From Brevundimonas lenta (GTDB lineage Bacteria; Pseudomonadota; Alphaproteobacteria; Caulobacterales; Caulobacteraceae), in assembly GCF_014196335.1 (NCBI RefSeq), contig NZ_JACIDM010000001.1, forward strand, positions 1,342,195-1,406,194: 64,000 nucleotides of DNA. The letters run 5' to 3'. Positions 2,548 to 6,108 of this stretch are shown one piece after another (positions within the stretch are counted from its first letter, which is position 1; each line of letters starts with the position of its first letter). A program made the translations under genes and the position numbers. The notes under the pieces were generated by a model that was given only the letters and a program-made list of their open reading frames with translations, was not told the DNA's origin and made no database searches.

Positions 2548-3045
2548 TCAACCGCAGAAGGCGAAGAACTGTTCGATCCGTCCGGCCGATCCGGGGTGCG
2601 GCGCGAACGGCTGACGCTCGTCGCCCTGCCACAGCGCCAGCCAGCCGACGCGGCGGAAGCGCTGGAACACCGGCTCGTCGGCGCGGGCCTCGGCCGACAG
2701 GAAGACGCCCTCGTTGACCATCGACGGCTCGGACTTCGCCCGATAGCGCTCGGTGTCGCCGCCGGATTCGATGTGGATTTCCGGAGCCGTCCCCGCGGGC
2801 GCATTGGCGCTCAAATCCAGTCGGCCGGACCCCCGACGGCAGTCCAGGCCCAGCTTCAGGTCGTCGGTGGCCTCGGTCCCGTAGGCCAGCCGGGCGTCGT
2901 TCTCATCCTCATGGAAGAACCAGTCGTATCCGGCTACCGGGGCCGGCCCTGCTGCGGTGGCGACCGGAGGCGCCGGTTCAGGCGCGGTCGCGCACGCGGC
3001 GACGCCCGCCAGCAAACTCAGCGACAACAGGATAGGCAGGCGCAT
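2548..3045 (-). CDS. Predicted lipoprotein, tandem paralogue A
   Basis: A 165-residue protein with a lipoprotein signal (LLAGVAAC lipobox near residue 18) and then a Pro/Ala-rich linker. I do not recognise a named family. The mature part starts with YDWFFHEDENDARLAYG, has a Cys in LDCRRGSG and ends in FFAFCG. The same layout (Trp, acidic residue, LAYG-like, Cys-x-x-Gly, then Phe-x-x-x-Cys near the C-terminus) recurs in the next two genes downstream on the plus map, so these are three tandem paralogues. The two conserved cysteines suggest a disulfide in the periplasm. Confidence 0.75.
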   Translation of the reverse strand: MRLPILLSLSLLAGVAACATAPEPAPPVATAAGPAPVAGYDWFFHEDENDARLAYGTEATDDLKLGLDCRRGSGRLDLSANAPAGTAPEIHIESGGDTERYRAKSEPSMVNEGVFLSAEARADEPVFQRFRRVGWLALWQGDERQPFAPHPGSAGRIEQFFAFCG

Positions 3046-3060
3046 GCACGGCTCCGGGGA

Positions 3061-3495
3061 TCAACCCGAGCACAGTTCGGCGAAGCGGCGCAGCTTGGCA
3101 AGATGGGCGGCCGGCACCTCGATGGCGCGTCGTTGCTCGCCCACGGTGATCGTCAGCTTGCCGTCGACGGCGAAGGCCGCGAACACCGGATGGTCGGTCC
3201 GCACCGCCATCTTCGTCGTGCCCGCGCGGGCCGGCTCCACTTCCGCCAGCGCCGACACAGTACCCGCGGTGATCCGCGCCACGCCCGCCGGGGTGTCGCT
3301 GCCGTACAGCGTCAGCAAGGCGACGCTGCTTCCCGGCGCGCATTCCAGGGTCGAGCGAAGGTTGGCCGTGTCCGGCACCTCATTCGCCAGCACGATCGGC
3401 GCGTCTTCGTACAGCGTCCAGGTCCAGGCCGACTCGTTCAGTATCTGGCCCCCGAGAGCCACGCTCGCCGCGAGGGCGATCAGGTATGCAAACAT
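3061..3495 (-). CDS. Exported small protein, tandem paralogue B
   Basis: A 144-residue protein with a short hydrophobic N-terminus (MFAYLIALAASVALGG) that looks like a signal peptide. The body has WTWTLYEDAPIVLA, a Cys in LECAPGSS and ends in RRFAELCSG. It aligns by eye with the lipoprotein at 2548-3045 and the protein at 3529-3996: the same Trp/acidic N-terminal motif, the same two Cys positions, and a DHPVFAAF block that matches DEPVFQRF in paralogue A. It is the most divergent of the three. Function unknown. The 15-base gap to paralogue A suggests a shared transcript. Confidence 0.7.
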   Translation of the reverse strand: MFAYLIALAASVALGGQILNESAWTWTLYEDAPIVLANEVPDTANLRSTLECAPGSSVALLTLYGSDTPAGVARITAGTVSALAEVEPARAGTTKMAVRTDHPVFAAFAVDGKLTITVGEQRRAIEVPAAHLAKLRRFAELCSG

Positions 3496-3528: not shown

Positions 3529-3996
3529 TCAGGCGTGGTCGTTTCCGCAATAGGCGAAGAACTCGCCGATCAGCCGGCGCTCTTTCGGCGTGGCCGTCAG
3601 CTCAAACGTCCCGGCGTCGCCTTCGACCGCCAGCTTGCCCTTGCGGGCCAGGTCGCGCATCGCCGGATCGCGGGTCGAGATGCGGGCCTCGTCGGCCAGC
3701 CCACCGCTCAGCGGATCGATCGCCGAAGTCATCGCCGTGTGGATCAGGCGCGGACTGGCCGGTTGAACGTCGCCGTACACCGTCGCCAGCGACCCGCCCT
3801 GTTCGCAGGTCATCATCAGCGCCAGTTGATCCGAATTCTCGACGCCGTAGGCCAGCTTGGCCATCCCGGCCTCATGCGTCAGGTGCCAGCCCATCTCGCC
3901 GGATACCGTCTGAACGTCCGAGTTGGAGGCGCTGGAATGCGCGGCTGCGGCGATCAAACCCAGGGCGGCGACGGCGGGAATGGCGAACTTAAGCAT
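3529..3996 (-). CDS. Exported small protein, tandem paralogue C
   Basis: A 155-residue protein. The start at 3996 is chosen because it gives a signal peptide (MLKFAIPAVAALGLIAAAAHSSAS); the frame stays open for 112 codons further upstream but that part is Arg-rich and not protein-like. The mature part has MGWHLTHEAGMAKLAYG, a Cys in MMTCEQGG and IGEFFAYCG near the C-terminus, matching the pattern of the two neighbouring paralogues. It is first in the apparent three-gene transcription unit. Function unknown; the paired cysteines suggest a periplasmic disulfide. Confidence 0.75.
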   Translation of the reverse strand: MLKFAIPAVAALGLIAAAAHSSASNSDVQTVSGEMGWHLTHEAGMAKLAYGVENSDQLALMMTCEQGGSLATVYGDVQPASPRLIHTAMTSAIDPLSGGLADEARISTRDPAMRDLARKGKLAVEGDAGTFELTATPKERRLIGEFFAYCGNDHA

Positions 3997-4209
3997 GGGA
4001 AAACACTCACGTCTGACCGGGCAAACGCTGCTCTCCGTTAACGGTTCACGGCTCCGCTTGACTGAGTCGAAGCGGATTCGGTTTGTGACCGAATTGCCTC
4101 TTGTTCGACGAACGTCGTGATGAGCGTCGGGTTGGCCGTTGTTCCGGAGTATGGTTGATCGATGGAACCGTCCGGGCTCACTGGTATCCGGGCGGTGAGG
4201 GGAAGGGTG

Positions 4210-4854
4210 ATGGGCCTGCTGGAGACACTGACGCCGCGCGAGCGCGAATGCCTTCGCCTCGTCGCCGGACATATGCAGTCCAAACAGATCGCCCGTCGTC
4301 TCGGCATCAGTCCTTCGACGGTCGACCGGCATTGCGAAAAGGCCATGCGCAAGCTCAGCGCGGGCGACCGGGTGACCGCGGCGCTGATGCTGGCGGCCGC
4401 CGAAGGCATACCGAATGACTCGGAATGGGGACCATTCCCAATCGAGAAAAGCGCTCCCGTCGGGTCGGATGACCTGGCGAAAGGGAGCTTCTATGAGCCA
4501 GTCGAATCTTTACCCGGACGAGCTGCCGGCCATGCGCTGGAGCCAGCTGGAATCTGTGATGATCAGCCTCGCGGATACGGACGCCAAACGTCTGATGGTC
4601 CGGCATCTGGTGGAGGGCACCCGCAAGCAGGCGGCTTTCCTTCCGGTCGAGGAGACTATCCGGGAGGTGCTGTGCATCAGCTTCGCGCTGATGGATGGCG
4701 ACTTCCGCCCGCAAGCGCCTACAGCCCCCTTGCGCGCCTGACCCTTGTCGTCGGTTTCGCCGCCTTCATCGCGGCGACCGCGACGCTTTTCTTCGGCGCG
4801 GAACAGGTGGCGTTTCTCTTCCAGTGGCTCCGCTACGGGGAAGGAGGGCCCTGA
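4210..4854 (+). CDS. LuxR-type HTH protein with C-terminal transmembrane segment
   Basis: A 214-residue frame. ATG 4210 is preferred over 4162 because GAGGGGAAGG precedes it. Residues 5-60 form a LuxR/GerE helix-turn-helix (LTPRERECLRLV, KQIARRLGISPSTV, KAMRKL). There is no receiver or autoinducer domain. The last ~45 residues hold one strong membrane helix (LTLVVGFAAFIAATATLFF). Between them lies a low-complexity linker overlapped in another frame by the gene at 4493-4741. Third-position G/C by hand count is 32/77 in the linker but 35/43 in the membrane segment, so the linker is weakly constrained. Alternatively the membrane part is a separate small protein starting at GTG 4672. Confidence 0.65.
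   Translation: MGLLETLTPRERECLRLVAGHMQSKQIARRLGISPSTVDRHCEKAMRKLSAGDRVTAALMLAAAEGIPNDSEWGPFPIEKSAPVGSDDLAKGSFYEPVESLPGRAAGHALEPAGICDDQPRGYGRQTSDGPASGGGHPQAGGFPSGRGDYPGGAVHQLRADGWRLPPASAYSPLARLTLVVGFAAFIAATATLFFGAEQVAFLFQWLRYGEGGP
4493..4741 (+). CDS. Small hypothetical protein nested in the linker of the HTH-TM gene
   Basis: An 82-residue soluble protein in the +1-shifted frame relative to the HTH-TM gene. ATG 4493 is preceded by AAAGGGAGCT, a good ribosome binding site. Hand count gives 67 of 82 third positions G or C (about 82 percent), the level of real genes here, whereas the overlapping frame gives 42 percent across the same bases, so this is the frame under protein-level selection. The product is helical with a WSQLESVMISLADTD segment; no family is recognised. 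Together with the genes on either side it forms a compact cassette. Confidence 0.7.
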   Translation: MSQSNLYPDELPAMRWSQLESVMISLADTDAKRLMVRHLVEGTRKQAAFLPVEETIREVLCISFALMDGDFRPQAPTAPLRA

Positions 4855-4884: not shown

Positions 4885-5223
4885 ATGAAACGTATGGATG
4901 TGGCGACCAATCTCGCCGAGCAGCTGTTTGAGGCCGAGGCCGCGATCGAGGCCGCGTATTGCAAGATCGGGGCGCTCGCCCAGGCCTTGCCGGAAGCCCG
5001 GGCGCGATCCGGCATGTCGTCCACGGTCGGCCAGGCGGCTTTCCAGGGGCTGATGGAATCGATGGCGGGCCAGGTGCAGTCCCGCAGCGCCATGATCCTG
5101 GTCCACCAGGAGCTCGCCCGCCTGAAGGCGAACTCCCCGTATCGCGCGGTCGCCATCGGCGGCGGTCTCAAGGAAGACGAACCTGTGGAGCGGCCCCAGG
5201 GCCGTCTTGCCCTCGTAAGCTAG
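4885..5223 (+). CDS. Conserved hypothetical helical protein of the HTH cassette
   Basis: A 112-residue protein, predicted mostly helical, with ATNLAEQLFEAEAAIEAA near the N-terminus and a TVGQAAFQGLMESM block in the middle. A GGAGGAGG-like ribosome binding site (TTTGGAGGAGGCACTGAG) precedes ATG 4885. No catalytic motif or membrane segment is visible. From memory of the family, similar proteins follow LuxR-type HTH-TM genes in other alphaproteobacteria, which would make this a conserved partner, but that was not checked here. Gap to the HTH-TM stop is 30 bases, so an operon is likely. Confidence 0.7.
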   Translation: MKRMDVATNLAEQLFEAEAAIEAAYCKIGALAQALPEARARSGMSSTVGQAAFQGLMESMAGQVQSRSAMILVHQELARLKANSPYRAVAIGGGLKEDEPVERPQGRLALVS

Positions 5224-5299: not shown

Positions 5300-5677
5300 A
5301 TGGGCCTCACCGTGCTGCTCGCCTTCCTGCGCGGCGGCGCGCTGGAGAAACAGGTCGCGGGCGTCGTCGGCGCCGCCTGGATCGCATCCGCCCTGGTGCC
5401 GCTCGGCGGCCGCATCGGCCCGGCGTGGCTGCTCGTCGCCATCGACGTCGGCCTGCTGCTGTACCTGCTCTACCAGGCGGCCTTCGCCAAACGGTTCTGG
5501 CCGGTGGTGGCGGCGGGCTTCCAGCTGCTGATCGTGGCCACCCACGCCACCTTCGCCCTGCGCATCCAGCTGGAGCAGTGGGGCTATTTCACCGCCTACT
5601 ATCTGTGGAGCTGGGGCGTCCTCGCCTGCATCGCCGTGGGCGCCCTGTCGGCAAAATCGTCCGCCCGCGACGCGTGA
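5300..5677 (+). CDS. Small integral membrane protein, hypothetical
   Basis: A 125-residue protein with about four hydrophobic segments (GLTVLLAFL, VGAAWIASALVPL, AWLLVAIDVGLLLYLLY, FWPVVAAGFQLLIVA, WSWGVLACIAVGAL). The first helix actually begins upstream of ATG 5300 in the same frame (AIVTYIAGFVA), but no ATG/GTG/TTG start is available there and no clear Shine-Dalgarno precedes 5300, so the true start is uncertain. No family recognised. It lies 76 bases after the HTH cassette and before an XRE regulator. Confidence 0.65.
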   Translation: MGLTVLLAFLRGGALEKQVAGVVGAAWIASALVPLGGRIGPAWLLVAIDVGLLLYLLYQAAFAKRFWPVVAAGFQLLIVATHATFALRIQLEQWGYFTAYYLWSWGVLACIAVGALSAKSSARDA

Positions 5678-5727: not shown

Positions 5728-6108
5728 ATGTCTTTTGATGCTGAAGCTATTGATCCCGTTGACCGCTACGTCGGGGAGCGCATTCGCGCCGAACGCATGG
5801 CCGCGGGCCTGACCCAGACCCAGCTCGGCGCCGCCGTCGGGGTCACCTTCCAGCAGATCCAGAAGTACGAGCGCGGCGTGAACCGCGTCTCGGCCTCGAC
5901 CCTCGCCCGCGCCGCCAAGGCCCTGGGCGTTCCGGTCATCCGCCTGTTCCCGGATCTCGATCCGCCGACCGGGGGCCAGAAGGTCCTCATCGGCGACATC
6001 GAGGGCGGTGTGGCCCTGACCGATTGCTACGCGGCCATGTCGCCCAAGCAGCGCACCCTGCTGCTTGAAATCGCGCGACAATTCGCCGGAACGGCCAAGG
6101 CCGGCTAG
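5728..6108 (+). CDS. XRE-family helix-turn-helix regulator
   Basis: A 126-residue protein. Residues 12-70 are an HTH_3/Cro-CI domain: VGERIRAERMAAGLTQTQLGAAVGVTFQQIQKYERG followed by VSASTLARAAKALGVPV (read as two adjoining blocks). The short C-terminal part (ALTDCYAAMSPKQRTLLLEIARQF) has the helical form seen in many caulobacterial relatives of this regulator. AAGAGG lies upstream of ATG 5728. It is convergent with flgH four bases away. Binding site and targets are unknown. Confidence 0.85.
   Translation: MSFDAEAIDPVDRYVGERIRAERMAAGLTQTQLGAAVGVTFQQIQKYERGVNRVSASTLARAAKALGVPVIRLFPDLDPPTGGQKVLIGDIEGGVALTDCYAAMSPKQRTLLLEIARQFAGTAKAG

Follow-up and report, generated by a model that had tools for sequence, protein, structure and literature searches.

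We analysed a 64,000-nt stretch of the Brevundimonas lenta genome (contig NZ_JACIDM010000001.1, positions 1,342,195 to 1,406,194 of the forward strand; hereafter the window). The genome carrying it is 3.36 Mb, with a GC content of 65–71% per 2-kb stretch. A cassette near the start of the window includes one coding sequence, 4493–4741, that lies wholly within another, 4210–4854, on the same strand and in a different frame. The features, in window coordinates, are as follows:

4210..4854, plus strand: gene for a 214-aa protein with a helix-turn-helix (HTH) domain, a linker and a transmembrane (TM) helix, here HTH-TM; an alternative in-frame ATG lies at 4162 and the frame is open to the stop at 4854
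4225..4389, plus strand: GerE/LuxR-type HTH domain (PF00196; residues 22–76 of the ORF read from ATG 4162)
4480–4487, plus strand: Shine–Dalgarno (SD) sequence of the nested gene, AAAGGGAG
4493..4741, plus strand: nested gene, ATG 4493 to TGA 4741, 82 codons, in the +1 frame relative to HTH-TM
~4738..4794, plus strand: C-terminal membrane helix of the HTH-TM protein, LTLVVGFAAFIAATATLFF, mean hydropathy 2.21
4885..5223, plus strand: helical partner, 112 aa, a predicted two-helix hairpin
5300..5677, plus strand: fourth cassette gene, for a multi-spanning protein of 125 aa with about four TM segments by eye (4-TM)

PF00196 matched the HTH-TM protein at E 7.5e-16 (58 bits; cut-off 23.5), and the domain starts about five residues past ATG 4210. 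The linker is rich in Gly and Arg, and the membrane helix begins at the nested gene's end. A first-pass annotation of this DNA had proposed, from third-position G/C, that both overlapping frames are real. Its counts were reproduced: the nested frame has 67/82, and the HTH frame has 33/77 over 4495–4725 (32/77 in the original count) and 35/43 over 4723–4851, where it resumes as the hydrophobic helix, as the annotation had described.

A Hidden Markov Model (HMM) of the nested protein matched 224 of 390 genomes and, once more distant members were included, 237 of 388 genomes of the family Caulobacteraceae, spread over 12 of its 22 genera. At the order level every one of the 52 matching genomes (of 398) belonged to the same family, and at the class level 4 of 385 genomes matched, of which two lie outside the family and gave only weak hits (E ~1e-3). 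Among the loci of the first set, an HMM built from alignment A2 detected an HTH domain upstream of 107 of the 110 nested matches (109 distinct), and in 105 of those the HTH frame was open through to the membrane helix. After pooling and removal of repeats, 129 distinct nested matches remained, 127 with an HTH domain and 124 with the HTH frame open through the nested gene to the helix. The distance from the HTH domain to the nested gene was 1 mod 3 in all 124 loci, despite 45 different lengths, and distant paralogues whose nested protein is as little as 18–20% identical to that of the window keep the same layout. Loci and pairs are related, not independent, in all of these counts. The comparison shows the two predicted genes conserved together across the family and its paralogues (124 of the 127 HTH-bearing distinct loci), in agreement with the proposals that both frames are real and that the linker was colonised by a second gene.

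The three exceptions carry indels, scored against the closest relatives available. Both proteins have altered C-termini in L014, where a gap of 7 bp close to the nested core's end removes the nested stop. In L156 (8-bp insertion relative to a relative at 82% identity) and L251 (11-bp gap) the change lies upstream, so that the HTH-TM frame is broken and the nested gene spared. The frame is nevertheless still open over the nested core in all three loci, and the membrane helix still readable in L156 and L251; the breaks in these two therefore look recent, or like assembly errors. No locus combined a broken nested frame with an intact HTH-TM gene, the case that the first-pass annotation had named as contradicting the nesting, which is a partial test because most loci were found by nested HMMs, and these are blind to HTH-TM genes with a decayed nested frame. 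Nor was a single-frame correction that would fuse the parts seen among the relatives.

Two loci deserve separate mention. The genome that contains the window also carries a second, very divergent layered copy (L098, G000:C1:568200-574400), with the 4-TM gene present and the helical partner absent. Among 17 named relatives, titled Brevundimonas (13), Caulobacteraceae (2), Alphaproteobacteria (1) and, probably wrongly, Bordetella (1), the last is a Bordetella sp. MAG (L046, JAFKFS010000023.1) with a Brevundimonas-type cassette, and is probably mis-binned or mis-titled.

Substitution patterns show purifying selection on the predicted nested protein. Its median dN/dS was 0.245 (IQR 0.184–0.312; 474 of 493 pairs, mutually related), and its codon positions 1, 2 and 3 differed at 0.164, 0.135 and 0.327. 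Over the same bases the linker gave an apparent dN/dS of 1.84, with no amino-acid conservation; this raised value reads as a reflection of the fact that the linker's synonymous sites are the constrained sites of the nested gene. Of the homologue comparison called for by the first-pass annotation, the part concerning two open frames and a selected nested protein held, and the part asking for purifying selection on the linker did not. Overlapping frames can in principle share conservation, and an accidental ORF inside a genuine HTH-TM gene could then seem conserved through its DNA. We regard this as vanishingly unlikely here, given that changes follow the nested frame and not the HTH frame, that the nested start has an SD site, that the structural model has a confident three-helix core and that homologues occur with no HTH domain at all.

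The proposed SD site of the nested ATG has counterparts in the relatives. With the best nested start chosen at each locus, an SD match of at least 4 bases was found in 101 of 105 loci; choosing the best start inflates this count, and the identical procedure in the other two frames, used as a control, gave 12/105 and 28/105. An AlphaFold model of the nested protein (mean pLDDT 82) has three helices, at residues 16–26, 30–47 and 52–67, and the product is predicted to be a small soluble three-helix protein. It had no credible known family (best E among 31 members, 0.028), no credible match when its profile was compared by sequence with solved structures (best E 0.019) and no significant match in a fold search of the model against the PDB (best E 1.8). 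Two of the 129 distinct matches are free-standing (L013/L099, G129:C11, and L022, G095:C5), with no HTH, partner or 4-TM gene in the 6.0 and 2.5 kb of available sequence. In another locus, L115 (G089:C34:13600-19700), the nested gene has 175 aa and comprises, by eye, apparently two tandem nested domains, with the HTH-TM frame open through both.

The rest of the cassette recurs as well. The first-pass annotation had pictured a layered cassette that included a helical partner, and the partner lies downstream in 96 of 105 nested loci; to this can be added the 4-TM gene, downstream in 103 of the 104 loci with enough flank. Both are present in all 17 named relatives. The partner model (mean pLDDT 75) has helices at residues 3–42 and 50–83; no credible known family was found for it (best E 0.01), nor a significant match in a PDB fold search (best E 0.76). 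For the 4-TM protein no family was credible either, with 2 of 31 members matching DUF7937 (best E 0.00046). PHROG returned no match for the nested protein or the partner and one weak match (E 0.043) for the 4-TM protein, and PADLOC returned only weak matches, to the HTH. A phage or plasmid origin was considered and set aside, the nested protein of L024 having no tblastn match at E up to 1 in either collection. A flagellar link, suggested by the nearby window genes flgH, flgA, flgG and flgF (named by eye), was likewise dropped, as none of the four lies within the flanks (at most 5 kb per side) of the 17 named relatives.

A profile search with HTH-TM itself, meant to catch HTH-TM genes with a wrecked nested frame, covered a small set of 14 genomes, 12 of them lacking a nested HMM match. 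It yielded seven compact HTH-TM homologues with no nested HMM match at E up to 1, in which the helix follows 51–60 residues past the HTH domain, against 109–178 in the nested loci compared; the 4-TM gene accompanies six of the seven and the partner four. One further locus, L217, was excluded as a different type (HTH, membrane helix, then a long C-terminal part). Searches with the partner, run for the same purpose, matched 30 of the 140 order-level genomes and 3 of the 133 class-level ones. Two of the loci, L264 from another family of the order and L269 from another family of the class, have HTH-TM, partner and 4-TM genes with no nested match, and both alternative frames contain stops over the linker. 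These searches show that the same cassette, with a short linker and no nested gene, occurs elsewhere, including in two genomes of other families. A tree of the 4-TM protein (38 rows) had three label changes and is compatible with one origin. A further variant of the cassette has tandem partner pairs beside the 4-TM gene, with no HTH upstream in the available stretch; it was seen at L255, L258, L260, L261 and L256, the last being the same place as L271.

The first-pass annotation had offered, as an alternative, that the membrane segment is a separate small protein starting at GTG 4672. We rejected this candidate, as the helix piece has no conserved start: in the 150 nt preceding the helix, only 50 of 105 loci have a start codon of any kind and 17 have one with an SD match of at least 4 bases, the background SD match per start codon in those loci being 370/1,839. 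Where no such start exists, the helix can be reached only by reading through the nested gene. Since nested-less cassettes also have the HTH domain and the membrane helix in one frame, the two appear to form one chain, with 7–31 residues after the helix in the 105 loci.

We then weighed whether the HTH frame crosses the nested gene by chance or by selection. As a control, 31 ordinary long genes of the window were read in the same relative frame (+2), which was free of stops in 57% of windows of 82 codons and in 52% of windows of 94 codons. Because more than half of ordinary 82-codon windows are equally open, the open HTH frame at the window locus alone is weak evidence. A further measure is the stop-making T, that is, a T at a nested third codon position before a codon beginning AA, AG or GA, which would stop the HTH frame. 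None occurred at the 14 risky positions of the window locus, and across the 105 loci the count was 0 of 1,822 sites, against T at 817 of 6,447 sites before other codons; ordinary window genes have T at 88 of 2,136 sites before AA, AG or GA codons and at 636 of 8,603 before others. Under synonymous recoding of the nested gene, the HTH frame is expected to stay open with a mean chance of 0.20 per locus, and it was open in 105 of 105; the control frame was open in 0 of 105, against 1.5% expected. Multiplied over representatives, these chances give about 1e-16 for 24 sharing less than 60% identity and about 1e-6 for 10 sharing less than 40%. A laxer null that uses the 52% found for 94-codon windows of the window genes gives only about 1e-7 and 1e-3, respectively.

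A rival reading accepts no more than the nested gene and the HTH domain as real: the HTH frame would cross the nested gene open by chance, and the TM piece would be a separate small protein or spurious. Open frames of this kind are common at such GC content, as the window genes show, and the linker sequence is unconstrained; moreover, the HTH-equivalent frame is also open in L013 and L022, which have no HTH domain, so frame openness alone is not diagnostic. This reading is nonetheless very improbable in the face of 129 open cores among 129 distinct matches, the complete lack of stop-making T's, a single phase in 124 of 124 loci over 45 distances, a TM piece with no conserved start, and compact nested-less proteins that join HTH and TM in one chain. 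Beyond openness, the remaining weight of the sequence evidence is supplied by phase, stop avoidance and the downstream helix, and the single-chain case for HTH-TM rests on these three because the linker has no amino-acid conservation. The comparisons show a putative linker that is nearly free in sequence, yet held stop-free and in phase. Overall, they indicate that selection keeps the outer frame open, less strongly so when judged by the window-gene rate.

On these grounds, the locus is very probably a true same-strand overprinted gene pair. The fixed frame relation in 124 of 124 loci is also what programmed frameshifting would require, and HTH–nested or nested–TM fusions might be made instead of, or besides, independently initiated products. 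We give this little chance, frameshifting being unnecessary when about 100 of 105 loci have a nested start codon with an SD site.

As to how the overprinted pair came about, we infer that a regulator/partner/4-TM cassette existed first and that the linker of its regulator then gained the nested gene, either by origin in place or by insertion and bridging, the long linker being a by-product. The variant in which a small gene was inserted and bridged as a unit within the regulator gene, as opposed to de novo overprinting in the linker, would fit a domain that is free-standing in L013 and L022, is apparently tandem in L115 and may move as a unit. It is unlikely, if well short of negligible: nested-less cassettes already encode one HTH-TM chain, so the membrane part is no later fusion, and free-standing copies make up just 2 of 129 matches.

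To our knowledge, two selected readings of one DNA stretch are rare outside viruses, and few deeply conserved nested pairs are known in bacteria. Standard annotation excludes fully nested gene pairs. According to the available text of PMC5810103 and PMC7103648, the overprinted genes of E. coli O157:H7 include laoB, which runs antiparallel to the gene of a CadC-like regulator, and pop, which lies antisense to ompA. As far as those texts describe them, they resemble the present case in that a complete second gene overlaps another in a different frame, a kind barred by annotation rules. They differ in being antisense and from E. coli O157:H7, whereas the present pair is same-strand, has its own SD site, spans 12 genera and keeps both frames in several paralogous lines.

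Within the literature on nested genes in Caulobacter and its relatives, we found no description of the present pair or cassette. A similar case is C. crescentus CCNA_00832, for which the available portion of PMC4117421 gives a same-strand nested CDS in the +2 frame with LC-MS peptides for both frames. At 804 and 360 nt, it matches in size the present pair of several Caulobacter-like genomes, where HTH-TM has 804 nt and the nested gene, stop included, 363 nt. We dropped it as an orthologue, as gene counting back from fljN makes it probably a LysR gene; on that reading the size match is coincidence. The counting used excerpts that identify CCNA_00835 as fljN (PMC4551563) and CCNA_00830 as a beta-galactosidase (PMC9007349), and the numbering also drew on excerpts of PMC3951458 and PMC5172544. 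In two mutually close genomes that probably lie near C. crescentus, counting two genes from the flagellin cluster leads to one that is LysR-like by eye, and HTH-TM lies some 14–18 kb away, beyond a GH35 beta-galactosidase. Gene counting places the C. crescentus cassette near CCNA_00822–00824, a position that is unproven. The available text of PMC4551563 lists the hypothetical protein CCNA_00822 as increased 13.2-fold in stationary phase and decreased in a cspC mutant; from this lead, itself unproven, the cassette may be starvation-related.

The domain make-up of the HTH-TM protein can be compared with two known classes of regulator. Like LuxR/NarL-FixJ (GerE) regulators it has a PF00196 HTH, but with this domain at the N terminus and a membrane helix at the C terminus; among the 25 of 28 Pfam matches listed, all fell on the HTH region, with no receiver, ligand or autoinducer domain. 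Membrane-tethered one-component regulators of the CadC/ToxR type have an N-terminal HTH (OmpR-type) and a single membrane helix. HTH-TM shares this plan and differs in its GerE-type HTH and in its short tail: the protein has no periplasmic sensor domain, because so few residues follow the helix.

Translation from 4210 would yield a tail-anchored regulator with its N-terminal DNA-binding domain inside the cell, and translation from 4493 a small helical protein, tying the two products together in inheritance and perhaps in dose. The membrane helix would keep the DNA-binding domain at the membrane beside the 4-TM protein, a candidate membrane sensor, and the nested and hairpin proteins could act as cytoplasmic modulators of the regulator. 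The nested protein, made from the regulator's own message, might bind the regulator (or the partner) and so adjust the amount of regulator acting on DNA. This scheme, of a membrane-held regulator, a 4-TM sensor and nested and hairpin modulators with the nested protein binding regulator or partner, is the weaker inference, and we put it forward tentatively, as rather doubtful in its details. Searches by family and by fold gave no match that would support a more specific role for the cassette proteins. Somewhat better placed, while still short of probable, is the idea that the regulator's flexible linker doubles as the gene for its modulator, one stretch of DNA fixing both pairing and relative dose, in an arrangement that lasted through duplication and spread in Caulobacteraceae.

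If the linker does encode a modulator, the loci would form a natural series that shows overprinting at both stages, with a short linker and no gene beforehand and with the nested gene afterwards. Both frames survive together across many genera and paralogues, and sister cassettes lacking the nested gene serve as controls, so that a bacterial overprinting event becomes open to test: the way in which a second gene establishes itself in a linker, what is lost from the linker, and the reason for the two products remaining tied. The comparison also uncovers a putative regulatory cassette, with a tail-anchored HTH regulator, a nested three-helix protein, a helical hairpin and a 4-TM protein, in the family of the model genus Caulobacter.

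Two further features adjoin the cassette in the window. On one side lie three consecutive look-alike small proteins on the minus strand (2548–3045, 3061–3495 and 3529–4008), with signal-peptide-like starts by eye. On the other is an XRE-type regulator (HTH_3, 1e-14) at 5728–6108, and 3 of the 17 named relatives have similar regulators close to their cassette.
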